A stretch of 64,000 bases of DNA from Ideonella sp. A 288. Lineage in GTDB: Bacteria; Pseudomonadota; Gammaproteobacteria; Burkholderiales; Burkholderiaceae_C. The position numbers and the translations under genes were made by a program. Numbering within the stretch: position 1 is the stretch's first letter; each line of letters starts with the position of its first letter. Below the pieces are notes generated by a model. It was given only the letters and a program-made list of their open reading frames with translations, was not told the origin of the DNA and ran no database searches. The stretch is from positions 62,001-126,000 of the forward strand of contig NZ_MWLO01000148.1 in the NCBI RefSeq assembly GCF_002198735.1, written 5' to 3'. Positions 2,172 through 13,513 of this stretch are shown piece by piece.

Positions 2172-3026
2172 TTACTTCGACTGCTGTGCCAGCGTGATCG
2201 TCACGTCCGACACCGGCAGCTTGGGGAACCCGCCGCTGGCGGCGGTCTCGACCTTGCCGATTTCATCGACGATGTCCATGCCCGCGACCACCTTGCCGAA
2301 GACAGCCCGTCCGGGCTGCGCGTCGCTCACACGGTCGAACTGCGGGTTGTCGGCCAGGTTGATGTAGAACTGCGAGGTGGAGGTGTCGCTGGCATCGCCG
2401 CGCGCGACGCCGATGGTGGCGCGCAGGTTCTTCAGGCCGTTGGCCGATTCGACCGCGATCGGGCTGAACAGTTCGACCTTGGCCGCCGGTCCGGCGGTGT
2501 AGCCGCCGCCCTCCACCCGCGAGCCCGCCTCGACGCGGTGGAAGATGGTGTTGGCGTAGAAGCCGGCGGCGACGTAGTCGATGAAGTTCTTGGTCGAGAT
2601 AGGCGCCGCCACCGGGTCGAGTTCGAGTGTGAAGGTGCCGCTGCGATCGCCCTGCTTCACGGCGACGAGCACCTGCGGCAAGGGCACGGTCAGCCGCATC
2701 GAGGCCAGCTCGGTGCCACTGGCGTCGTGGATGCGCGGGACCAGCAGCCCGGTGCCTTCGACCTTGCAGGTGAACTGCGCCAGCAGGTCGGTGCCGTTGG
2801 CGGCCTTGGTGACCGCGCCGCAGGGGCCTTCGACGGTCATCGTGAGCCCGCCCACGAGCAGCCCGGCCCCGTTGACGGTCACGGTCAGCGTTCGGCTGTA
2901 GGCCACGCCGGTGGCCGAGACGTTGGTCACCGCCGCGCTGCCGCCGCCGCCCCCGCCGCCGCAGGCGGTCAGGGCCATGGCCAGGGTGGCCGCGGCGGGC
3001 CACAACGGTCTGTTCGACATGAGCAT
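2172..3026 (-). CDS. Cyclophilin-type peptidyl-prolyl isomerase, predicted lipoprotein
   Basis: A cis-trans prolyl isomerase of the cyclophilin family (284 aa). The N-terminus has a short hydrophobic signal ending in the lipobox LTAC followed by a glycine run, so the mature protein is probably lipid-anchored in the periplasm. An unassigned beta-rich segment (about residues 30-125) precedes the cyclophilin domain, which shows the hallmarks KNFIDYV, FHRV, EGGGYT and TSQFYINLADN. It lies between the TolC-like gene and wzm. An extracytoplasmic foldase inside a secretion operon suggests help with assembly of the outer-membrane channel or exported partner (inference). ATG at 3026 is chosen; an in-frame GTG at 3038 overlapping the upstream stop is possible. 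Confidence 0.88.
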   Translation of the reverse strand: MLMSNRPLWPAAATLAMALTACGGGGGGGSAAVTNVSATGVAYSRTLTVTVNGAGLLVGGLTMTVEGPCGAVTKAANGTDLLAQFTCKVEGTGLLVPRIHDASGTELASMRLTVPLPQVLVAVKQGDRSGTFTLELDPVAAPISTKNFIDYVAAGFYANTIFHRVEAGSRVEGGGYTAGPAAKVELFSPIAVESANGLKNLRATIGVARGDASDTSTSQFYINLADNPQFDRVSDAQPGRAVFGKVVAGMDIVDEIGKVETAASGGFPKLPVSDVTITLAQQSK

Positions 3027-3034
3027 CTTCACTT

Positions 3035-4456
3035 TCACGGTTGCTTGGGCGCGTCGGCCGTGCCTGCCACCGCCACCAGAGACTGGTCGAGGTCGGCGGC
3101 CGCGTCGGCCATCGGCACGCCGGCCTGCACCATCAGGCGCATGCGCGAGATCAGGTAGTCGATGCGGGCCTGCGCCAGATCGCGCTGCACGACGTAGAGC
3201 TGGGCCTGCGCATCGGCCAGCTCGGTCATCGTGCCCACGCCGGCCTCGAGGGCACGGCGCGAGCCCTCGAGCGCCAGCGCTGCCGAGGCCACGGCCTGGC
3301 GGTGGGCGGCGATCTTCTTGGCGCCGTTGGCGGTGGCCTGGTAGTGGCGTTGCACCTCGAGCTCGACGTTCTCGCGCTCGGCGCGGATCTCTTCCTCGGC
3401 CCGGGCCTGCGAGGCCAGGGCCTGCTTGATGCTGGCCTCGACGCCACCGCCGTTGTACAGCGGCACGTTGAGCTGCACGCCCACCGTGCGCAGCGTGGCC
3501 GACTGGCCCAGGCTGGACAGCGATTCGTTCTCGCTGCGCGCCATGCTGGCGATCAGGTCGAGCCGCGGGTAGTGCCCGGCCGTCTGCCGCTGCACGGCCA
3601 TGCGCGCCACGGTCAGGGCTTGCTCGCGCGCGCGCAAGGTGGGGCTCTGGCGCAGCGCCAGGTCGAGCCAGGCCACCATGCCTTCGGGGATCAGCGAGGT
3701 CGGGGTGTAGTCGGGCGGCACCTGGCGCAGCGGCGGCGTGGGAAGCCCGGTGACTCGGCGCAGCGCACGGCGCGCCAGCTCGACCTGGTCCTGGGCATCG
3801 ATCTGGCGGGCGCGGGTGAGATCGAGCGCAGCCCGGCCCTGCGCCACGTTGACGCGCGTGCCCTCGCCGCGCTCCAGCCGACGTTCGGCCTGCTGCAACT
3901 GGACGATCAGCGCCTGCTCCTGCGCATCGACCAGGCGCTTGCCCTCCTCGGCCAGCAGCGCCTGGAGGTAGGCCACGGCCAGGCGGTCGACAAGGTCCAG
4001 GCCCTGGCCCCGGTAGACCGACTCGGCCACTTCGGACTGCGCCTGCGCCTGCTGGTAGACGCTGGACGCCTCGCGGTTGAACAGCGGCATGCGCAGCGTC
4101 ACGCTGGTCTGCGGCGCGTCGTAGTCGACGCGCAGCCGCACGTCCTGGTTGGAGCCGTTGGCGATGCGGCGCGTGCCCAGCACGCTGGATTCGGACACGT
4201 TGAGGTTCACCGTGGGCAGCAGCGCCGCCCGGGCCACGGGCACGCCTTGCCGTGCGGCCGTGAGCTCGTGGTTGGCCGCGCGGTAGCGCGCATCGTGGCC
4301 CCGCGCGGCCTCGTAGGCCTCGGCGAAGCTCATGGCCTGGGCACCGCTCGACAGTGCCATCAGGGCCAGCCACACCAGCCGGCGCGGCACCTTGCAGGGC
4401 GAGCCCGCCGCGCGCGCGGCGCGTCGGCCCGATCGATCGATCACGGACATCCTCAT
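3035..4456 (-). CDS. TolC-family outer-membrane channel of the type I secretion system
   Basis: The outer-membrane efflux channel (473 aa) that would complete a type I secretion apparatus with the two ABC exporters and the HlyD adaptor. A long basic N-region leads to a signal peptide with likely cleavage after SSGAQA. The mature protein has two repeats of long alpha-helical coiled-coil stretches typical of TolC/AprF, e.g. LPTVNLNVSES and YPRLDLIASMARSENES at equivalent positions. ATG 4456 overlaps the HlyD stop as ATGA, indicating coupling. The C-terminal 20 residues are acidic and Ala-rich. Confidence 0.92.
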   Translation of the reverse strand: MRMSVIDRSGRRAARAAGSPCKVPRRLVWLALMALSSGAQAMSFAEAYEAARGHDARYRAANHELTAARQGVPVARAALLPTVNLNVSESSVLGTRRIANGSNQDVRLRVDYDAPQTSVTLRMPLFNREASSVYQQAQAQSEVAESVYRGQGLDLVDRLAVAYLQALLAEEGKRLVDAQEQALIVQLQQAERRLERGEGTRVNVAQGRAALDLTRARQIDAQDQVELARRALRRVTGLPTPPLRQVPPDYTPTSLIPEGMVAWLDLALRQSPTLRAREQALTVARMAVQRQTAGHYPRLDLIASMARSENESLSSLGQSATLRTVGVQLNVPLYNGGGVEASIKQALASQARAEEEIRAERENVELEVQRHYQATANGAKKIAAHRQAVASAALALEGSRRALEAGVGTMTELADAQAQLYVVQRDLAQARIDYLISRMRLMVQAGVPMADAAADLDQSLVAVAGTADAPKQP

Positions 4457-5823
4457 TCCTCGGTCATCGAAGCCGACAGGCGCTTGAGCAGCGGGTGCAG
4501 CAGGTAAGTCAGCATCGAGCGTTCGCCGGTCTTGATCAGCACCTCGCCCGTCATGCCGGGTTGCACAACGCGGTCGCCGAGCGCCTTCAGGCCCTCCGGC
4601 GTCAGCACCACGCGGGCCAGGTAGAAGCTCTGCACCATGCCGGCCACGCTCTCGGACACCGCATCGCCCGACAGCGACACCAGCTTGCCGTGCACCACCA
4701 GTTGCGGCGAATTGGAGAAGGCCGAGAAACGCACCTCGACGGCATCGCCCACCTTGACGCGGTCGATCACGTGCGGCGGGATCTTGACGTCGAGCAGCAT
4801 CGATTCGCCGCGCGGCAGGATGTCCATCAGGTGCTGGCCCGGCTGCACCACGCCGCCGACGCCGCTGACCTGCAGGCCGATCACCTGGCCGGCCACCGGC
4901 GACTTGATCTGCATGCGGCCGAACTCGGCCGTGACGGCCGCGAGCCGCTCCTGGTTGGCCTGCACCTCGCGGCGCACGTCGGCGAGCTGGGTGCTGATCT
5001 CCTTGAGGTACTCCTGCTGGCGCTGGGCCAGGCGCAGGCGCGCCTCGGCGGCCGAGCTTTGCACGCGCAGCACGTTGGCCTCGAGGTCGGCGATGGTCGT
5101 CTGCAGTTCGGCCTGTTGCTGTTCGAGCTGCAGCGCCTGGTTGCGCGGGGCGAAGCCGTCGGCGGCCAGCGACTTGACGCCCGCCACCTGGCGCGCCTGC
5201 AGCGCCTGCTGCGCTCGACGGCCGTCGATCATCTGCTTCAGGCCCGCGACCTGCCCTTCCAGGCCGACGATGCTTTGCTGCGCGGCCGCGATGTCCGCCG
5301 CCTGGGCCGCCTTCCGCGACGCGAACAGCTGCTGCTGCACGGCCATGTGCTGTGCGGCATAGGGCTCGGTCGATTGCGTCAGGTCCGGGTGGAAGGTGAT
5401 GCTCGCGGCCCGGCTGGCCTCGGCGATCAGGCGGCTCTCGGTGGCACGCTGGCCGAGGTAGTTCTGGCGGATCGATTCCTGCGCGGCGCGGGCGGTGCCA
5501 TCGTCCAGCACCAGCAGCACGTCGCCCGGCTTGACCTCGGCGCCTTCCTTGACGACCACCTGCTGGATGATGCCGCCCTGCACGTGCTGGATGGTCTTGC
5601 GCCGGTTCTCGACCGACACCACTGCGCCGGCCGACACGCCTTCGTCCAGGGGCGCCCAGGCGGCCCACGCGAGGAACAGTCCGAAGCCCACGATGAGCAC
5701 CCAGAACCCGAGCCGGATGGGACCTCGGGTGTCGGCGGTCTGGCCGGCGTCGTCGACGTCGGTGATGTCGCCGGGTGCGCCCGGTGTGGGCGAGCCGCCG
5801 GTGGAGTTGGTCAGTGCGTTCAT
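4453..5823 (-). CDS. HlyD-family membrane-fusion (adaptor) protein of type I secretion
   Basis: The periplasmic adaptor (456 aa) linking the ABC exporter to the TolC channel. One transmembrane helix lies near residues 37-60 after a cytoplasmic N-tail. A lipoyl-like half follows (VVVKEGAEVKPGDVLLVLDD), then about 200 residues of Gln/Ala-rich coiled coil, and the second lipoyl half with the beta-barrel (IKSPVAGQVIGLQVS). The C-terminus carries the HlyD/PrtE signature GMTGEVLIKTGERSMLTYLL. It overlaps its neighbours by ATGA on both sides. Confidence 0.94.
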   Translation of the reverse strand: MNALTNSTGGSPTPGAPGDITDVDDAGQTADTRGPIRLGFWVLIVGFGLFLAWAAWAPLDEGVSAGAVVSVENRRKTIQHVQGGIIQQVVVKEGAEVKPGDVLLVLDDGTARAAQESIRQNYLGQRATESRLIAEASRAASITFHPDLTQSTEPYAAQHMAVQQQLFASRKAAQAADIAAAQQSIVGLEGQVAGLKQMIDGRRAQQALQARQVAGVKSLAADGFAPRNQALQLEQQQAELQTTIADLEANVLRVQSSAAEARLRLAQRQQEYLKEISTQLADVRREVQANQERLAAVTAEFGRMQIKSPVAGQVIGLQVSGVGGVVQPGQHLMDILPRGESMLLDVKIPPHVIDRVKVGDAVEVRFSAFSNSPQLVVHGKLVSLSGDAVSESVAGMVQSFYLARVVLTPEGLKALGDRVVQPGMTGEVLIKTGERSMLTYLLHPLLKRLSASMTEE

Positions 5824-7598
5824 GTGTTGGGCGTCCCAGGCTGAGCGGTGGGTGCGGGTCGCACCACCACGGGAAGTAGCTTGTCGATGCGGCCGGCGTC
5901 GAGCACGAGCAGGCGGTCGGCCACGGCGATCAGGTGCTGCTGGTGCACGATCATGAAGACGGTGGCACCGCGGGTCTTGAGCTCACGGACGGTGCGGGCC
6001 AGCGCGGCCTCGCCGGCGTCGTCGAGGTTGGCGTTGGGTTCGTCGAGCACCACGATGGTGGGCGCGCCGACGATGGCGCGGGCCAGGCCGATGCGCTGGC
6101 GCTGGCCACCCGACAGCAGGCTGCCGGCCTCTCCGATGGGCGTGTCGTAGCCCTTGGGCAGGCGCAGGATCATGTCGTGGATGCCGGTGCGCGTGGCCGC
6201 CTCGATGATCTGCTCGGGGTCTGCGGCGCTGAAGCGCGCGATGTTCTCGGCGATGGTGCCGTCGAACAACTCGATGTCCTGCGGCAGGTAGCCGAGGTAG
6301 GGCCCGAGGGCCTCACGCGACCACGACTGGACGGGATGGCCGTCGATCAGCACCTGGCCCTCGGTGTCGGGCCAGATGCCCAGCAGGCAGCGCGCCAGGG
6401 TGGACTTCCCGGCGCCGGACGGGCCCATGATGGCCACCACCTCGCCGGCCTTGAAGTCGGCGTCCAGGCCTTGCAGGATGGGGCTGGCGCGCCCAGGCGC
6501 CGTGGCCACGAGGCCGCGCAGGCTGACCTGCCCATGCACTGTGCCGCTGCGCAGCGCGGCATCGGGTGCGGGCTGCGACTGCAGCAGCGTGTCCAGGCGC
6601 CCGAAGGCCTGGCGGGCCTCGACGAACTGGCTCCAGATCTGCACGATGATGCCGATCGGTCTCAGGGCATTGCCCATCAGCGCGTTGCTGGCGACCATGG
6701 CGCCTGCGCTGATCTTGCCGTCGATGGCGAGCAGCGCGCCGAGCGCCAGCATCATGCCCTGCTGTGTGTACTGCACCCACTTGGCGAGGGCCTGGATGCG
6801 CCGCGTGGCTTCCTGCGCCTGCGCGTGGCTGGCCATCTGCTTGTCGTGCAATGCCAGCCACTGGTAGCGCAGGTTGCCCTGCATGCCCATCGCCTCCACC
6901 GTTTCGGCGTTGCGCAGCTTGGCCTGCAGGTACTGACCCGACTCGAGCGCCAGCTCCTGCGTCGCCTTGAGCCGGCGCGACGTGTAGCGGTGCGCTCCCA
7001 GCGCCATCGCGCCCTGCACCACGCTGAACACGATCGACGCCCAGCCCAGCCAGGGGTGCATCAAGAAGAGCGCGGCGATGTAGACCACGGTCCACGGGGT
7101 GTCGACCACCGCGAAGACGCCGTTGCCGGTGAGGAAGGTGCGCAGGAAGTTCAGGTCGGTGAGCGGCTGCTGCGAATTGCGCCGCGTGGCCGACAACTGC
7201 GCCAGGTAGGTGGCCGAGAAGACCGGGCGGTTCAAGGCCTCGTCGAACCGCCCCCCCGAGCGCACCAGCAGGCGCGAGCGCACCCATTCCGCAAAGCCCT
7301 GCACGAGATAGAAGAACACCATCAGCCCGGTGAGGGCCAACAGCGTGAGCGTGTTGCCGCTGAGCATGACGCGGTCGAACACTTGCAGCATGTACAGCGT
7401 GGGCGTGAGCTGCAGCAGGTTGACGAACATGCTGAACACGCACACCCAGGCGAACTCGCGGCGGAAGGTCCACAGCACGCGGCCGAGCTCGCTGCGCTCG
7501 AACAGGCTGCGGCGGGGGCCGGGCGTCGACGCGGCGGCCGGCGAACCGGTCGGCCGGGCGACCGTGGTGCTGGGCGTGTGGGCGGGCGTGGCGCTCAT
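5820..7598 (-). CDS. Type I secretion ABC exporter (PrtD-like), second of a tandem pair
   Basis: A fused membrane/ATPase exporter (592 aa) of the PrtD/AprD type, without an N-terminal C39 peptidase or C39-like domain. The membrane domain (about residues 50-330) precedes the nucleotide-binding domain, which has an intact Walker A GPSGAGKST near residue 390, signature LSGGQRQR near 496, Walker B VVLDEP with the catalytic Glu, and an H-loop His in IVHQQH. ATG 7598 has a strong GAGGAGGTG ribosome site and overlaps the preceding exporter stop by ATGA. Both tandem ATPases look catalytically complete, so they could form a heterodimer or two separate homodimeric pumps. Confidence 0.92.
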   Translation of the reverse strand: MSATPAHTPSTTVARPTGSPAAASTPGPRRSLFERSELGRVLWTFRREFAWVCVFSMFVNLLQLTPTLYMLQVFDRVMLSGNTLTLLALTGLMVFFYLVQGFAEWVRSRLLVRSGGRFDEALNRPVFSATYLAQLSATRRNSQQPLTDLNFLRTFLTGNGVFAVVDTPWTVVYIAALFLMHPWLGWASIVFSVVQGAMALGAHRYTSRRLKATQELALESGQYLQAKLRNAETVEAMGMQGNLRYQWLALHDKQMASHAQAQEATRRIQALAKWVQYTQQGMMLALGALLAIDGKISAGAMVASNALMGNALRPIGIIVQIWSQFVEARQAFGRLDTLLQSQPAPDAALRSGTVHGQVSLRGLVATAPGRASPILQGLDADFKAGEVVAIMGPSGAGKSTLARCLLGIWPDTEGQVLIDGHPVQSWSREALGPYLGYLPQDIELFDGTIAENIARFSAADPEQIIEAATRTGIHDMILRLPKGYDTPIGEAGSLLSGGQRQRIGLARAIVGAPTIVVLDEPNANLDDAGEAALARTVRELKTRGATVFMIVHQQHLIAVADRLLVLDAGRIDKLLPVVVRPAPTAQPGTPNT

Positions 7599-9379
7599 GC
7601 GGCACCTCCTCGGGGAGCAGGCGCTGTGAACGCGGGTTTGGGCAGTTGCACGGTGCGCCCGCGCGCCTTTTCGTTGGCTTCCTTCATCGCGGCCAGCACG
7701 TCGTCGCGCGGCCCGAAGGCGCCGACGGTGCCGTCGGTGAGCAGCAGCAGCTTGTCGGCCGCCGGCAGCACGCTGGAGCGGTGGGTGATCGCAATGAGCG
7801 TGGTGCCACGCGACTTGAGCCGTTGCATCAGGTCGAGCAGCGCCTTGTCGCCGGCCTCGTCGAGGCTGGAATTGGGTTCGTCCAGCACCACCAGCCGCGG
7901 CTGGCCGTAGATGGCGCGGGCCAGGCCGATGCGCTGGCGCTGGCCACCCGACAGCACTGCGCCCTCGTCGCCGATGGCGGTTTCGAAGCCTTGGGGCAGC
8001 TGCTCGATCATCGCCGTGATGCCCACCTCGTCGGCGGCCTGGCGCACCAGGGCCATGTCGACCTTGCCGAAGCGGGCGATGTTCTCGGCAATGGTGCCGT
8101 CGAACAGCTCCACGCCCTGCGGCAGGTAGCCGATGTGCGGGCCCAGCTGCGACTTGTGCCAGGCGTAGACGTCGGCGCCGTCGAGCCGCACCTTGCCGCC
8201 CTGGGCCGGCCACACGCCGATGAGCACGCGGGCCAGCGTGGACTTGCCGGCGGCCGACGGCCCGATGACCATCAGCGCCTCGCCCGGCGCCACCTGGAAA
8301 CTCACGCCCTTGAGCACCGGCGCCTGGCTGGCGGGCGGGCTGACATAGACGGCCTCGACCGTGAGCACGCCCTTGGGTGCCGGCAGTTCCATGCCCGGCT
8401 CACGCTGGGGCACGTGGGTCAGCAGTGCCGACACCCGCGCGTAGGCACTGCGCACGCTGGCGATCTGCCGCCATTGGCCCACCAGTTGCGCCAAGGGGGC
8501 GAGCACGCGCCCGCCGAGGATCGACGCGACGATCACCATGCCGCCGCCACCCAGCAGGTTGTTGCCCAGCATCAGCCAGGTGGCGAGGCCGAGCAGCAGC
8601 GAACCCTGCATGTTCTGGATCATCTTGGCCGCCGCCGAGGCCACGCTGGCCTGGTCGGAGGCCTGCGACAGCCGCTGCAGGAAGCGCCTCTGGCTGGCCA
8701 TCCAGCGCTGGTACATGGCGCCTTCCATGCCCATCGACTCGATCACCTGGGCATTGCGCAAGGTGCCGGTGGCGCGGTTCTGGGCCTCGATGGACGCCTG
8801 CATGGCCTCGCCATAGGGCGGCGACGTGCGGCGCTCCTGGACCAGGCCCAGGCCAGCCTGCAGCAGCGCCCCCAATGCGGCCATCAGTCCGAGCCAGGGG
8901 CTCATCAGGTAGAGCAGCACCAGGCACAACAGCGAGGCCGGCACGTCCATCGCACCGGTGACCGCCGGCGACGGGATGAAGTCGCACACGGCCCGCACGT
9001 CGGACAGGGCCTGCGTGGTGCCCCCGGGCTGCTTGCGCAGGTTGGCCTCGAAGCAGGCGTCGAAGACCCGGGGCGTGAGTTGCCGATCGACGGACTGCGC
9101 GGCGCGGAACAGGATGCGCGAGCGTGCGATCTCGAGCAGCTCGAGAACGACGTACACGCCCACCGCCGCCACCGACAGCCAGACCAGCGTCATGACGTTG
9201 CGGCTGTTGAGCACGCGCCCGTAGACCTCGAACATGTACCAGGACGGCACCAGCATCAGCGCGCCGATGACCACGCTCAATCGAAGGGCCTGCATGAAGA
9301 GCGCGCGTTGGCCCAGGATCAGGGCCTTCACCTCGGTGCCCGGGGCCTGTGGCGGCCTTGTGGAGGATGCTTTTTTCAT
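7595..9379 (-). CDS. Type I secretion ABC exporter (PrtD-like), first of a tandem pair
   Basis: A 594-aa inner-membrane exporter with fused ATPase. Hydrophobic segments occur near residues 33-53, 62-85, 143-180 and 250-290. The ATPase domain shows GPSAAGKST near 372, LSGGQRQR near 476, VVLDEPN near 498, and an H-loop His in ITHRSS. It has no C39 domain, as in exporters of Ca-binding RTX proteins and S-layer proteins such as Caulobacter RsaD. Its ATG overlaps the stop of the TnpB-like gene (ATGA), so its translation is probably coupled to that gene. The likely substrate is the large RTX/S-layer-like protein encoded just upstream (inference from proximity and family). Confidence 0.92.
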   Translation of the reverse strand: MKKASSTRPPQAPGTEVKALILGQRALFMQALRLSVVIGALMLVPSWYMFEVYGRVLNSRNVMTLVWLSVAAVGVYVVLELLEIARSRILFRAAQSVDRQLTPRVFDACFEANLRKQPGGTTQALSDVRAVCDFIPSPAVTGAMDVPASLLCLVLLYLMSPWLGLMAALGALLQAGLGLVQERRTSPPYGEAMQASIEAQNRATGTLRNAQVIESMGMEGAMYQRWMASQRRFLQRLSQASDQASVASAAAKMIQNMQGSLLLGLATWLMLGNNLLGGGGMVIVASILGGRVLAPLAQLVGQWRQIASVRSAYARVSALLTHVPQREPGMELPAPKGVLTVEAVYVSPPASQAPVLKGVSFQVAPGEALMVIGPSAAGKSTLARVLIGVWPAQGGKVRLDGADVYAWHKSQLGPHIGYLPQGVELFDGTIAENIARFGKVDMALVRQAADEVGITAMIEQLPQGFETAIGDEGAVLSGGQRQRIGLARAIYGQPRLVVLDEPNSSLDEAGDKALLDLMQRLKSRGTTLIAITHRSSVLPAADKLLLLTDGTVGAFGPRDDVLAAMKEANEKARGRTVQLPKPAFTAPAPRGGAA

Positions 9380-10086
9380 GCGTTGGCCTGGGGGGTCTGG
9401 GGACTCGTCGGCGCGAGGGTGGCGGCGTGCGCGAGCGATGCAGCCGCCATGGCGGCTCCCGGCAACCCGACGCCGCCCTGATCAGAGCCGTCGAGGACCA
9501 TAAGGTACTCGGGGAACTCGCTGGCGACGGGCGCGGCTTCCGCCGCCCCATCGGCCAGGTCGTCGCCTTCGGCGAAACTGAAGCTCAGGAGGTAGCCGTC
9601 TGGTCGTGACTGCAGCACGATCTCGCGCAGCTTGCCATGCCGGAACCGCAACTCATCCTGCGGCTCGAGCGGCAGGTTGAAGCGCATGCGGCCATCGAGC
9701 GTGTACATCGACACCTGCCCGTCCTTCAGGCTCAGCGTGTGCCGGTCGAAGTACACCGGCGCCTGGGGCTGGAACTGCACGACCGGCAGCGGCCGGCCCC
9801 CCAGCCGTTGCACATTGAATGGACTGGCCGGATGCTGATAGACCAGCCGGCAGGCGCGTGAGACCGAGTAGATGGCGTTGCACACCATCTGCGAGCCCAG
9901 CGCGGGGAACTGCTCGCGCAGCTGGCGATAGGCCATGTGGTGCAGTGCCACCCGGTTCCAGCAGGCGGTGCGTTGCGCCAGCGGCGCCAGCGTGTTGCAC
10001 ACCTGGGCAAACGCCTGCTGCAGCTCATGCAGGCGGGCGTTCTGGGCGGCCGTGGTTTGCAGCCGGATGTGCAGACTGGAATTCAT
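9376..10086 (-). CDS. TnpB N-terminal-half homolog lacking the RuvC domain, head of the secretion operon
   Basis: A 236-aa protein I would not recognise as a secretion component. Residues 1-75 read like the N-terminal helical domain of IS605-family TnpB (OrfB): a spaced pattern of RLQTT.AQ.ARL, a phenylalanine helix, WNRVALHHMAYRQLREQF and a final helix SQMVCNAIYSVSRA. Residues 105-165 (FDRHTLSLKDGQVSMYTLDG and following) match the beta-barrel/wedge segment of TnpB, which typically reads DxRxxSFK...VSLxTLxGR. The TnpB catalytic part should follow, with its GVDLGxxNLA RuvC-I motif, but here the sequence passes into an Ala/Pro-rich tail and stops, overlapping the first exporter by ATGA. That coupling indicates a stably domesticated gene and not a fresh truncation. 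The start codon is inside a perfect inverted repeat. A nucleic-acid-binding regulatory role is inference only. Confidence 0.75.
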   Translation of the reverse strand: MNSSLHIRLQTTAAQNARLHELQQAFAQVCNTLAPLAQRTACWNRVALHHMAYRQLREQFPALGSQMVCNAIYSVSRACRLVYQHPASPFNVQRLGGRPLPVVQFQPQAPVYFDRHTLSLKDGQVSMYTLDGRMRFNLPLEPQDELRFRHGKLREIVLQSRPDGYLLSFSFAEGDDLADGAAEAAPVASEFPEYLMVLDGSDQGGVGLPGAAMAAASLAHAATLAPTSPQTPQANA

Positions 10087-10124
10087 ATAGGAGCGGGATG
10101 ATAGCGCACTCCTATATGAATTCC
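10078..10124. repeat. 16-bp perfect inverted repeat enclosing the TnpB-like start codon
   Basis: Arms GGAATTCATATAGGAG (10078-10093) and CTCCTATATGAATTCC (10109-10124) are exact reverse complements around a 15-nt loop. In the minus-strand mRNA the ATG of the TnpB-like gene (10086-10084) sits in the 3' arm, while an AGGAG-like Shine-Dalgarno sits in the 5' arm; in a folded RNA both would be sequestered. A TATCAT -10-like hexamer lies in the loop (minus strand). It may be an operator, a translational switch, or a relic of a transposon-end hairpin. Confidence 0.9.
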
Positions 10125-10183: not shown

Positions 10184-10215
10184 GAAAAAGGCCTGCACCC
10201 AGGAAGGTGCAGGCC
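10184..10215 (-). terminator. Intrinsic terminator of the S-layer-like gene
   Basis: GGCCTGCACC (10190-10199) pairs perfectly with GGTGCAGGCC (10206-10215) around a 6-nt loop. On the minus strand the stem is followed by CTTTTT. It lies about 70 nt after the stop at 10283. Two further GC-rich hairpins (10228-10244 and 10249-10272) lie between stop and terminator. It should separate the abundant S-layer-like transcript from the secretion operon. Confidence 0.85.
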
Positions 10216-10282
10216 CTTGAATGATCACCCCGGCTTGGCCGGGGACAGCCACCACCCCGTGAAGGGCGGTGGATGCGGTCGA

Positions 10283-13200
10283 TCAGACGAAGTTGTCGGC
10301 GGTCAGCGCGGCCCAGGCCACGTCGGCCAGGTCGATCGAACCCATCAGTGTGGCGGTCACGTCACCGACGGCGACCGAGGTCGTGTCGACAACTTGGTAG
10401 ACCTTGCCGACGTTGCCGGTGGCGGCGTCGAACACGATGTAGACGTGCGACGAAGCGGTGGCGTCGTTGGCATACAGACCGGCGATCAGGGTCTGGCTGG
10501 CAGCCTCGGTGGCACCTTGGTTGCTGGCGTCAGCCACGGCCACGGTGATCGACTTGTTGGTGTCGATCGCCACGCCGAACTGCGCGCCAACGCCGTTCCA
10601 GGCGGTCAGGTCGAGCTGGTCGATGCCAGGGCCCGCCACGTCGAAGTTCAGGATGTAGTCGGTGATGGCCGTGTCGGCCGCACCGCTGTACACCACGACT
10701 TCGTTGCTGGAGTTCAGCGTGTCGGCACCGATGGTCGTGCCCAGCACGATCACGTCGCGGCCAGCGGCACCGGTGGTGGTGTTGTCGCTGGTGGTGACGC
10801 TGTCGAGACCAGCCACATCCGCCGCGGCGATCTGGCCGAAGGTGGAGGCGTAGTTGGCGGCGACGTCGGTCGTCGTCATGGCACCGGTCACGGCGGCATA
10901 GGTGGCCGCCAGGGCGGGGCCACCCGCCGGGCTGTACGCAGCGGCCAGGGCAGTGATCTCGGTCGAGGTCAGTTGCTCCACGGTCGGCAGCGTGACGACC
11001 ACGGCCAGGTCGCCGGCAACGCGGTCACCGTCGATCAGCGAGGTGACCACCAAGCTGGCAAACGGGCCATCCGACGCGACCAGCAGCTTGCTCAGCACCG
11101 GATCGTTGTTGATGGCAGCCTTGATGGCCTGGTTGATGTGCAGGTCGGTGGTGCGGAACGTGGCGGTGCTGCCGATGACGGCCTTGCCGACCAGACCCTT
11201 GAACGTCACCGTCATGTTGCCCTTGTAGAGCAGGTTGGTGTCGTTGGTGTCCGAGCGCAGGTCGCCCAGTTCCAGCACGCCAGGCAGCGCAGCCAGGGCC
11301 GCATCGGCCGACTGGAACGCGGTGTTGAACACCCACGTGGCCTTCTGGGCACCGGTGTTGTCGTTGTAGCTCGTGTCGTTGCCGGTGCCGAGGTTGATGA
11401 CGATGTCACCAGCTCCCGGGGTGTTGACCGTGTCGTCACCGTCGCCGGCGTTGATCGTGACGTTGGCATTTTCCTTCTGGTGCGAGTACCAGAATTCGTC
11501 ACCGCCGGGGTTGGCGGTGTTGGTGATGCGCGTCGTGATCTTGTCGTTGCCGGCGTTGCCGTTCACCACGAAGGTGAAGTCTTCGCGGCCGACTTGCACG
11601 TTGCTGTTGCTGCCGGCGATGCTGCCGTCGATGTCGACGGTGATCGAGTCGGCGGCCGAGCCACCCGAGTAGATGAAGTCAGCAACCTGCTGGACCTTCT
11701 TGCCCGTGTTGGAGGTGTTGTCACCAGCCGGATCGGGTTGGGTGTCCACCGTGTTGATGTACTTGGCGAACGAGTTCTCGCTGATCTGCGCGTCGAACGA
11801 GAACGCACCCTTCAGCGCGGAACCGTCGATCAGGCGAACGTCGGTGAAGCCGTAGTTGCCATGGATGTCGCCAGGGGCGCTGGTGTTGACGCCAGGATGA
11901 TCCTGGTTGGTGCTGTCGTTCGTGCCCGAGAAGCCCAGCACCGACAGCGTGCCGTTGCCGGCCGCATTGGTGTTGGTGCCGTTGACCAGCACGACTTCCT
12001 TCAGCGTGTTGGCGGTGGACGACATGATCTCGAGCTTGCTGTTGCGCTCGACGGTGACATCGAAGCGCTCGACGCCCTTCGACGACGAGGTCTCGCCGAC
12101 CGACAGGCCGCCGATGACCAGATCGCCGCCGTTGCTGCCGCGGCCCACGTCGTCCAGGATCACCTTGACCGTGACCAGGTCTTGCGACGTGGTGGCGGTG
12201 GTGTTCTGCACGGTGTGCAGACCGGAACTGGCGGGAACGGTGCCGTCGGCGGTCAGGAAGGCGCCGGTGGCCAGCGTGTCGCCGCTGCTGCTCGACAGGG
12301 TGATGACCTGACCGACTTGCGGGCGGCCAGAGATCGTGTCGATCGCGGTGAAGGTGCCGGTGATGCCGACGGAAATGTTGGCCAGCAGCGGGTTGGCGGC
12401 GACGGCGGCCTGCACGGCAGTCAGCAGCGCCGCGTAGGTGGTCGCGTCATCGATGGCTTGCGACTGCAGCTTGATCAGCGTGCCACCCAGCGTGAACTGG
12501 AAGCCGTTGAACGGGCTTTGCAGCAGGGGATCCAAACCGGCATCGGCGCTGCGGGTGTCCATCAGTTCGATGTTCAGGACCGAGGCGGTGTTGCTGTTCG
12601 AACGCAGCGAATGCTGGTCGAAGTACAGCGCGTAGTCGACGTGGCCCGGATCGGTCGACACCATCGCAACGGTGATGTCCTTGGTGATCTGGGTCGACAG
12701 GATGCGCACGTCTTCGACGATGACGTCGGCACGGCTGTTGTTCGATTCCCAGCGGTTGACACCGACGGTGCGCTCGGCGTCGACGTTGACGCGGCCTTCG
12801 AAGGCCACGTTGTTGTCGCCCGTGTCGGTGGCGCGCGACTGGGCGCGGATCATGAACGTCTCGATGCCGGTGGTCTCGGGCGTGACGGCGAAGTTCTGCG
12901 ACGCACCCATGTCGGCCAGCAGCATGTCGGTGCCAGCACCGCCGGAGACGACGTCACCGGATTGCAGCGTGTTGCTGTTGTCGATGATGCGGGCGGCGAA
13001 GCTGTCGTTGCCAGCGGTGCCGGACAGGAAGTCCAGGCCGGTGGTCAGGTTGAAGCTCGGCGTGACGTTGACCACGTCCGACAGCAGCGCGTCGGAGGTG
13101 CCGGGGGTCTGCGCGTAGGTGACGGCAGAGGCGACTTGCGCGTTGAACGCGGTGGCGGCGGCGCCCCACAGCGGGTCGCTGGTCAGCGTGGAGAACACGT

Positions 13201-13513
13201 TGACGAGGTTGGCGACGGTGGAACCCTTGGTGCCGGCAGGCGCGGCGGCCAGGGCGGCAGCGACAGCGGCTTCAGCACCCGCGGCGTTGGCGCCGGTGAT
13301 GCCCAGGTTGGCGACAACGGCAGCGGCGACAGACGCGTCGGTGGCGGAACCATAGCTGGCGTTGAAGGCGTCATTGATGACGGAGTTCAGGCCACCGCTT
13401 TGGAATGCGGCCTGTTGCAGAACCGAGGCCGTCGTGGCGGCGCCGAGCTTCACGCCCCACAGGGCGGCAGCGGCGCGGGCGACGATGGTGTTATTGAAAG
13501 TGGGAGTTGCCAT
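10283..13513 (-). CDS. Large type I-secreted, Ca-binding RTX/S-layer-like protein
   Basis: A 1076-aa protein rich in Ala, Thr, Asn, Ser and Asp, nearly free of Cys, with no N-terminal signal peptide. It starts MATPTFNNTIVARAAAALWG. Scattered Gly/Asp nonapeptide-like motifs resemble RTX repeats: GTAGNDSF (~164), GGAGTDML (~193), GNAGNDKI (~652), AGDGDDTV plus LGTGNDTS (~690-715) and GAAGRDVIVLG (~915). The acidic C-terminus ends DLADVAWAALTADNFV, consistent with an uncleaved C-terminal type I secretion signal. Size, composition and the neighbouring exporter resemble S-layer loci such as Caulobacter rsaA-rsaDEF. A secreted adhesin is the alternative. TGGAG lies about 8 nt before ATG 13513. A long leader with a CRP-type site precedes it and a strong terminator follows, as expected for an abundant product. 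Confidence 0.85.
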   Translation of the reverse strand: MATPTFNNTIVARAAAALWGVKLGAATTASVLQQAAFQSGGLNSVINDAFNASYGSATDASVAAAVVANLGITGANAAGAEAAVAAALAAAPAGTKGSTVANLVNVFSTLTSDPLWGAAATAFNAQVASAVTYAQTPGTSDALLSDVVNVTPSFNLTTGLDFLSGTAGNDSFAARIIDNSNTLQSGDVVSGGAGTDMLLADMGASQNFAVTPETTGIETFMIRAQSRATDTGDNNVAFEGRVNVDAERTVGVNRWESNNSRADVIVEDVRILSTQITKDITVAMVSTDPGHVDYALYFDQHSLRSNSNTASVLNIELMDTRSADAGLDPLLQSPFNGFQFTLGGTLIKLQSQAIDDATTYAALLTAVQAAVAANPLLANISVGITGTFTAIDTISGRPQVGQVITLSSSSGDTLATGAFLTADGTVPASSGLHTVQNTTATTSQDLVTVKVILDDVGRGSNGGDLVIGGLSVGETSSSKGVERFDVTVERNSKLEIMSSTANTLKEVVLVNGTNTNAAGNGTLSVLGFSGTNDSTNQDHPGVNTSAPGDIHGNYGFTDVRLIDGSALKGAFSFDAQISENSFAKYINTVDTQPDPAGDNTSNTGKKVQQVADFIYSGGSAADSITVDIDGSIAGSNSNVQVGREDFTFVVNGNAGNDKITTRITNTANPGGDEFWYSHQKENANVTINAGDGDDTVNTPGAGDIVINLGTGNDTSYNDNTGAQKATWVFNTAFQSADAALAALPGVLELGDLRSDTNDTNLLYKGNMTVTFKGLVGKAVIGSTATFRTTDLHINQAIKAAINNDPVLSKLLVASDGPFASLVVTSLIDGDRVAGDLAVVVTLPTVEQLTSTEITALAAAYSPAGGPALAATYAAVTGAMTTTDVAANYASTFGQIAAADVAGLDSVTTSDNTTTGAAGRDVIVLGTTIGADTLNSSNEVVVYSGAADTAITDYILNFDVAGPGIDQLDLTAWNGVGAQFGVAIDTNKSITVAVADASNQGATEAASQTLIAGLYANDATASSHVYIVFDAATGNVGKVYQVVDTTSVAVGDVTATLMGSIDLADVAWAALTADNFV

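Follow-up and report, generated by a model that had tools for sequence, protein, structure and literature searches.

A TnpB lobe without RuvC heads a type I secretion operon and may repress it by reading a TAM-containing operator

The window analyzed here is a 64,000-nucleotide stretch of the Ideonella sp. A 288 genome (contig NZ_MWLO01000148.1, positions 62,001 to 126,000). On its minus strand, positions 9376..10086 encode a 236-amino-acid protein that we name TnpN (gene tnpN) and that corresponds to the REC and WED lobe of the transposon-encoded nuclease TnpB, without the RuvC and TNB domains. The open reading frame had been described in an initial annotation, whose length and coordinates are borne out; its strand is corrected to minus, and the plus-strand reading of 9376-10086 is interrupted by stops. 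The tnpN stop codon overlaps the start of prtD1 (7595..9379, minus strand) in the sequence ATGA. This second gene encodes a type I secretion permease/ATPase of 594 amino acids (NCBIfam TIGR01842, 6e-185) and is followed on the same strand by prtD2 (5820..7598), a second such permease/ATPase recognized by a family scan and by its homologues in related operons. The next two minus-strand genes are presumably a membrane-fusion protein gene (mfp, 4453..5823) and a gene that we take to encode a TolC-like protein (3044..4366), both named from their position. Each has a homologue in 39 of 39 related operons, and the TolC-like protein shares 56% identity over 442 amino acids with its equivalent at the related locus L043. 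Farther along, the product of positions 2250-2933 (minus strand) is 47% identical over 231 amino acids to the protein encoded after the TolC-like gene in L043, and this is probably a further exporter-associated gene.

Matches to TnpN occur in 9 of 60 relatives, counting the source genome and G054 (the latter through full-length TnpBs alone); at the family level, 39 of 399 genomes have one, source genome included. A species collection in which 80 of 175 relatives were kept is presumably betaproteobacterial wherever the titles of those 80 name a lineage. From 122 loci, 98 distinct ones were obtained by removing 8 weak or TnpB matches (L009-L016), 2 whose starts lie off the contig, and 14 protein duplicates. 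A PrtD homologue is encoded downstream, within 2.1 kb and on the same strand, at 97 of these 98 loci; the remaining one (L060) is cut by a contig end, and the association thus holds at 97 of 97 testable loci. The tnpN stop codon overlaps the next start as NTGA at 79 of the 98 loci (as ATGA at 70), and wherever at least 7.5 kb of downstream sequence is available the order tnpN-prtD-prtD-mfp-tolC is kept (39/39). The genus is represented by 21 genomes; PrtD1 (E at most 1e-150) is found in all 6 with tnpN and in 0 of the 15 without, a group that includes incomplete assemblies. A further 5 genomes, picked for having tnpN, likewise carry PrtD1. The view in the initial annotation that the gene is a functional operon member is upheld by these results, as is the co-occurrence with tandem PrtD exporters that it proposed to examine, with one PrtD gene at 97/97 loci and both at 39/39.

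Scans of the Pfam, NCBIfam and PHROGs collections yielded no TnpB match for TnpN. A Pfam scan of 34 members returned just six unrelated weak families, each in a single member, and the TnpN alignment, used as a profile against PDB sequences, had no match up to E = 10. Direct comparisons with TnpBs reveal the homology. Residues 13-159 match the TnpB of G054 (E = 4e-19, 38% identity), which has TnpA encoded upstream, RuvC motifs and a zinc ribbon. Identity to a Methylomarinovum plasmid TnpB is 37% over TnpN residues 7-169, and the TnpB of G826 is 47-50% identical to TnpN members over 133 amino acids. Another TnpB, that of G1124, was found through its 66% identity to the Methylomarinovum plasmid protein, and full-length relatives are also present on viral contigs. 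A profile–profile comparison aligns TnpN residues 1-174 with TnpB at a probability of 99.8% (E = 3.8e-29, 35% identity) and stops about ten residues before RuvC-I. Hence the REC and WED N-terminal lobe is present and the RuvC catalytic domain is absent. No match to the TNB zinc ribbon family PF07282 was found in TnpN, whereas all 3 full-length relatives scanned have one. Transposon context is likewise missing at tnpN, whose neighbors are exporter genes.

Both the TnpB N-terminal homology and the loss of RuvC had been read by eye in the initial annotation, and both agree with these alignments. Structure prediction had been suggested there as a check, and an AlphaFold2 model of TnpN (predicted local distance difference test score 85.7, predicted template modeling score 0.79) shows one strand, then three long helices, then several strands, which is the order expected for WED-REC-WED; the assignment to WED and REC is based on sequence alignment together with this order of secondary structure. 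At residues 192-197 there is a conserved tail in which P192 and Y194 are nearly invariant. Its position corresponds to the beginning of the first RuvC strand in TnpB, and it may be a relic of that strand.

The family has the hallmarks of a living gene. In the alignment of its 98 distinct members, 51 of 174 columns reach 98% identity or more. For 999 pairs, the ratio of nonsynonymous to synonymous substitution rates has a median of 0.32 and a maximum of 0.68, and the five lowest values are 0.03-0.08. Members are 200-263 amino acids long, with start codons chosen by us; for some of the loci (e.g., L007, L008, L042) misplaced starts blur a few positions. In a tree of 50 rows, the 27 TnpN rows form one clade (100/100) among related TnpBs, which points to a single domestication. 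This clade is weakly sister to the L161/L175/L177 group (87/47); the branches of three rows are long, and the bootstrap has not converged. Searches for more TnpBs of the related clade found none in 369 genomes of the class (E at most 1e-60), 3 in 349 of the order and 1 in 299 of the phylum. Within the order of G1124, 1 of 78 genomes has a clade TnpB, and it is the same genome.

The promoter region of tnpN carries a candidate operator that the initial annotation missed. The 11-mer TTCATATAGGA flanks the predicted promoter; in most loci two copies face each other in inverted orientation, and one of them covers the start codon. In the window, copy 1 (10110..10120) reads TTCATATAGGA on the gene strand, i.e., the minus strand, and is located upstream of a predicted −10 box, TATCAT (10098..10103, minus strand). 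Copy 2 (10082..10092) reads TTCATATAGGA on the plus strand and therefore TCCTATATGAA on the gene strand, where it covers the tnpN start codon. Of the 66 loci whose pair is intact, 64 have a TAnnnT element between the copies, compared with 45% of shuffled segments, and in 40 of the 66 this element is at position −17 or −16 relative to the ATG. Because of this position, the transcription start is expected no more than a few bases from the ATG, and the mRNA would be nearly leaderless.

Of the 98 loci, 95 have one or more sites that match exactly or with a single mismatch, and 85 have two or more. The copies are arranged as an inverted pair at 60 loci and as direct repeats only at 9 (8 with two copies, 1 with three); the rest are mixed or single. 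When up to 2 mismatches are allowed, 198 sites are obtained, of which 172 are exact and 189 start with TTCAT. The bases that flank the sites are not conserved; those at −1 and +11 agree more between copies of one locus than between loci, in a comparison in which the relatedness of loci is uncontrolled. Together with its next base, the site forms the near-palindrome TTC(A/C)TATA(T/G)GAA, whose two asymmetric positions keep a single orientation almost without exception. Because the site is nearly palindromic, it could possibly be read by a dimer. By RuvC/TNB sequence, Cas12f enzymes are among the closest solved relatives of these TnpBs, and Cas12f enzymes act as dimers.

This word is specific to the tnpN locus. 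In the 7-Mb source genome the exact 11-mer occurs twice, both times at the tnpN promoter. We also searched 43 further genomes, of which 42 have a TnpN match and one (G054) has full-length TnpB only. In total, 72 exact 11-mers were found in 37 of them, 68 of which are no more than about 300 bases from a tnpN match and 4 at other places, compared with a single match to a reversed-word control. The four off-locus words (two in G247, one each in G256 and G400) are single sites with no TnpN or PrtD homologue nearby and no common context, and their number corresponds to the background rate. Among 40 genomes without tnpN there are 3 word matches and 5 control matches, none of them near TnpN or PrtD homologues.

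A few loci have unusual arrangements. At L008 (G029) and L007 (G036), an operator copy and its ATG precede the usual protein start by a wide margin. The ATG in G029 is in frame with tnpN, and an N-terminal extension of the protein is therefore likely there. In G402, a second, partial tnpN match (G402:C13:38584-38916, L213) has an exact operator word of its own.

The composition of the operator ties it to the transposon-adjacent motif (TAM), the short sequence read by TnpB. In ISDra2 the TAM is the insertion target (PMC8612924), and another report places the TAM duplex in the cleft between WED and REC of ISDra2 TnpB, in contact with Y52, S56, K76, F77, Q80, T123 and N124 (PMC10097598). The 11-mer TTCATATAGGA consists of (T)TCAT followed by ATAGGA, and the nearest TnpB transposons with readable ends insert 3′ of (T)TCAT; the operator thus contains the TAM of the nearest TnpBs, with one exception (L184) and a codon caveat for copy 2 that are considered below. 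The left flank is TTCAT in all 6 G054 element copies that were read (7 were fetched, and the search pattern missed one) and in both G924 elements read, a third being masked. Three aligned viral-contig copies (L175, L176, L183) have NTCAT, where N is T, A or C. For flanks assigned by end resemblance only, the sequence is TTCAT in L174, L190 and L189, and NTCAT in L182, L185, L179 and L161. The left flanks of the elements at L158, L177, L178 and L180 could not be read. On the protein side, the TnpN residues aligned with the seven ISDra2 contacts are Y53, R57, S65, Q66, C69, D114 and R115, each of which is invariant in 98/98 members; the chance of seven invariant columns under random placement is 0.0015. 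By this alignment, these residues would be the counterparts of the ISDra2 TAM contacts.

The same word also marks the start of transposon-borne TnpBs of the related clade. We considered 12 distinct clade TnpBs with no tnpA match in the 1.3 kb upstream, which are not all independent, since L175, L176 and L183 are close copies. Four of them (L177, L179, L182, L185) have TCCTATATGAA at the start codon exactly, three (L175, L176, L189) with 1 mismatch and two (L180, L183) with 2, so that 9/12 are within 2 mismatches. A more distant tnpA-less TnpB, L191, has 3 mismatches. None of 11 other TnpBs has the word within 4 mismatches at its start. Six or more of these have tnpA upstream (L009, L158, L160, L171, L174, L190, L215), and L169, L170, L172 and L173 are distant and tnpA-less; for L009, no candidate start was scored. 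At L177, L179, L182 and L185, which are on viral contigs and encode TnpBs that are full-length or cut by the contig, a −10-like box is located just upstream of the word. It is possible that TCCTATATGAA serves at these starts as an autoregulatory site of TnpB that is independent of any exporter.

The explanation that fits this pattern best is that TnpN is a TnpB-derived autorepressor that directly reads a TAM-containing operator on the exporter operon, probably without a guide RNA, and we assign this reading a probability of roughly 0.7. A TnpB would have been domesticated by keeping the REC and WED lobe, which forms the TAM-reading cleft in TnpB, and by losing the whole nuclease lobe (RuvC and TNB). 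The protein most likely binds the 11-bp TTCATATAGGA directly; our main reason for naming TnpN as the binder is that the component which the exporter operon shares with the tnpA-less transposons is the TnpB lobe. Copy 1 precedes the −10 box and copy 2 covers the predicted transcription start and the translation start, so that binding would repress the promoter of tnpN itself, and the repression would extend to the whole tnpN-prtD1-prtD2-mfp-tolC operon. A fuller history holds that a guide-free transcription factor arose from the TAM-reading lobe, that the clade TnpBs were already autoregulated by TAM reading, and that the operon captured a ready-made switch of protein plus operator. We consider the chances of this history to be about even.

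Several points weigh against the proposed autorepressor. Three of the 98 loci have no site within 1 mismatch, and one of these (L112) has none within 2. Among the tnpA-less TnpBs, the word is not shown by L161 (3 mismatches), L184 (5) or L178 (8), and the left flank of L184, GACAT, does not fit the TAM. The contact residues were mapped through a very remote alignment: when ISDra2 alone is compared with the clade profile by hhalign, the match is not significant (probability 0.4%, E 0.16). A protein that begins Met-Lys or Met-Asn through ATGAA yields TTCAT automatically on the other strand, and copy 2 alone is thus no proof of a TAM; the argument is therefore carried by the noncoding copy 1 and by the bases upstream of the ATG. 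A given 5-mer is expected within an 11-mer, on either strand, by chance in about 1.4% of cases. A consensus promoter scan of the window found no full −35/−10 promoter at tnpN. Finally, we know of no precedent for an isolated REC and WED lobe that binds a TAM.

The likeliest alternative is that TnpN, descended as it is from an RNA-guided protein, is still RNA-guided in the manner of the repressor TldR. A short RNA with the seed AUAGGA would then direct TnpN to sites composed of TAM plus seed. The 11-mer has the length of a 5-nucleotide TAM and a 6-nucleotide seed, and mutations of seed nucleotides 1-6 relieve TldR silencing (PMC13418256). We nevertheless consider this unlikely. The RNA scaffold of ISDra2 TnpB binds mainly the WED and RuvC surface (PMC10097598), and TnpN has no RuvC. 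The region from −300 to −60 has no common k-mers above the shuffled background, and there is no Rfam match in the window; a divergent or distant RNA could have escaped these searches. The word at the start codon is shared among TnpB-only elements, whereas the guides of transposons follow a varying right flank, and the excess identity between copies is found on both sides of the word (−1 and +11) rather than on the guide side alone. A role for TnpN and its operator as an activator or a ligand-sensing switch, instead of a simple repressor, appears more doubtful still. Copy 1 precedes the −10 region, a place open to an activator, but in most loci copy 2 lies over the start codon and the point where transcription is expected to begin, which is a typical repressor position, and the Pfam and NCBIfam scans of TnpN found no added sensor domain.

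Two further explanations would remove TnpN from the operator altogether. The motif could be bound by another host factor while TnpN has an unrelated role in secretion, which would be compatible with the linkage of TnpN to PrtD at every testable locus. We judge this very improbable, given that the motif tracks tnpN and falls to background level in genomes without it, that it is also found at the starts of TnpB-only transposons, which share with the operon the TnpB lobe, and that the columns aligned to TAM contacts are invariant. Just as improbable, or slightly more so, is a motif that came down from the ancestral transposon and acts as a hairpin in RNA or as a signal for leaderless translation. 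Such a start context is indeed common to tnpN and the TnpB-only elements, and RNA folding of the strand joins the two copies in the window into a strong stem, which is what raised the hairpin for consideration; it was set aside on account of the 9/98 loci that have direct copies only. Moreover, the expected transcription start is downstream of copy 1, so the mRNA would lack that copy, and the word is absent from the rest of the source genome, which also speaks against this explanation.

Upstream of tnpN, positions 10283..13513 (minus strand) encode an S-layer-like protein of 1076 amino acids that has no Pfam or NCBIfam match. A predicted intrinsic terminator (10187..10218, minus strand) is located between this gene and tnpN, and tnpN should therefore begin its own transcription unit, with the S-layer-like gene outside it. 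A homologue of this gene is present within 9 kb upstream at only 1 of 36 distinct loci with enough sequence; outside that set, L006 and L044 show some similarity to it. Linkage of tnpN to secretion is thus constant, and linkage to the S-layer is not. A 2416-amino-acid protein encoded beside the L043 operon shares 40% identity over 177 amino acids with the N terminus of the S-layer-like protein, and because of this resemblance the latter may be an export substrate. The initial annotation had proposed that TnpN is a nucleic-acid-binding regulator of the surface layer. Its first half finds strong support, but with TnpN as the predicted reader of a DNA operator on its own operon. Regulation of the surface layer is not borne out, in view of the predicted terminator, the 1/36 loci, and the confinement of the 11-mer to the tnpN promoter in the source genome.

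If the proposed mechanism is true, an RNA-guided nuclease can turn into an ordinary sequence-specific regulator of which the TAM reader alone is kept. TAM recognition, normally a licensing step only, would then be the entire DNA-binding function, and TnpN would offer a small system in which to study TAM or PAM (protospacer-adjacent motif) recognition by itself. Autoregulation by TAM reading would be a second function of TnpB, and TnpB autoregulation becomes directly testable. TnpN is also a candidate regulator for a betaproteobacterial type I secretion operon. To our knowledge, the TnpB exaptations described so far (Cas12, TldR) all keep the nuclease fold and a guide RNA, and among the literature matches listed (titles and abstracts, open-access) there was neither a RuvC-less TnpB nor a TnpB in a type I secretion operon.

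TldR came about when mutations inactivated RuvC, and it uses a guide RNA (PMC13418256). TnpN resembles it as a domesticated TnpB with a fixed genetic partner that would act by repression at TAM-bearing sites. TnpN differs in that the retained but inactivated RuvC of TldR is absent, RuvC and TNB being missing altogether, in that no guide RNA signal was seen here, and in that a fixed operator is present on its own promoter. The IS200/IS605 TnpBs of the same clade (L158, L161, L174, L179, L009) have the whole REC and WED lobe and (T)TCAT beside the element, and most tnpA-less members have a start-codon word like that of TnpN; TnpN, unlike them, has no RuvC, zinc ribbon or transposon ends and is linked to PrtD. 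Because defining features of both are missing, TnpN is assigned to neither TnpB nor TldR. Cas12m and Cas12k are type V effectors without double-strand cleavage that keep the RuvC fold and use a CRISPR RNA. TnpN shares with them a relationship to TnpB and, as predicted, DNA binding without cleavage, but shows neither the RuvC fold nor a CRISPR RNA. In layout, TnpN resembles the classical operon autorepressors, which have paired operators across the promoter and the regulator gene first in the operon, with the difference that the predicted reader is a TnpB lobe instead of a helix-turn-helix or another usual fold.

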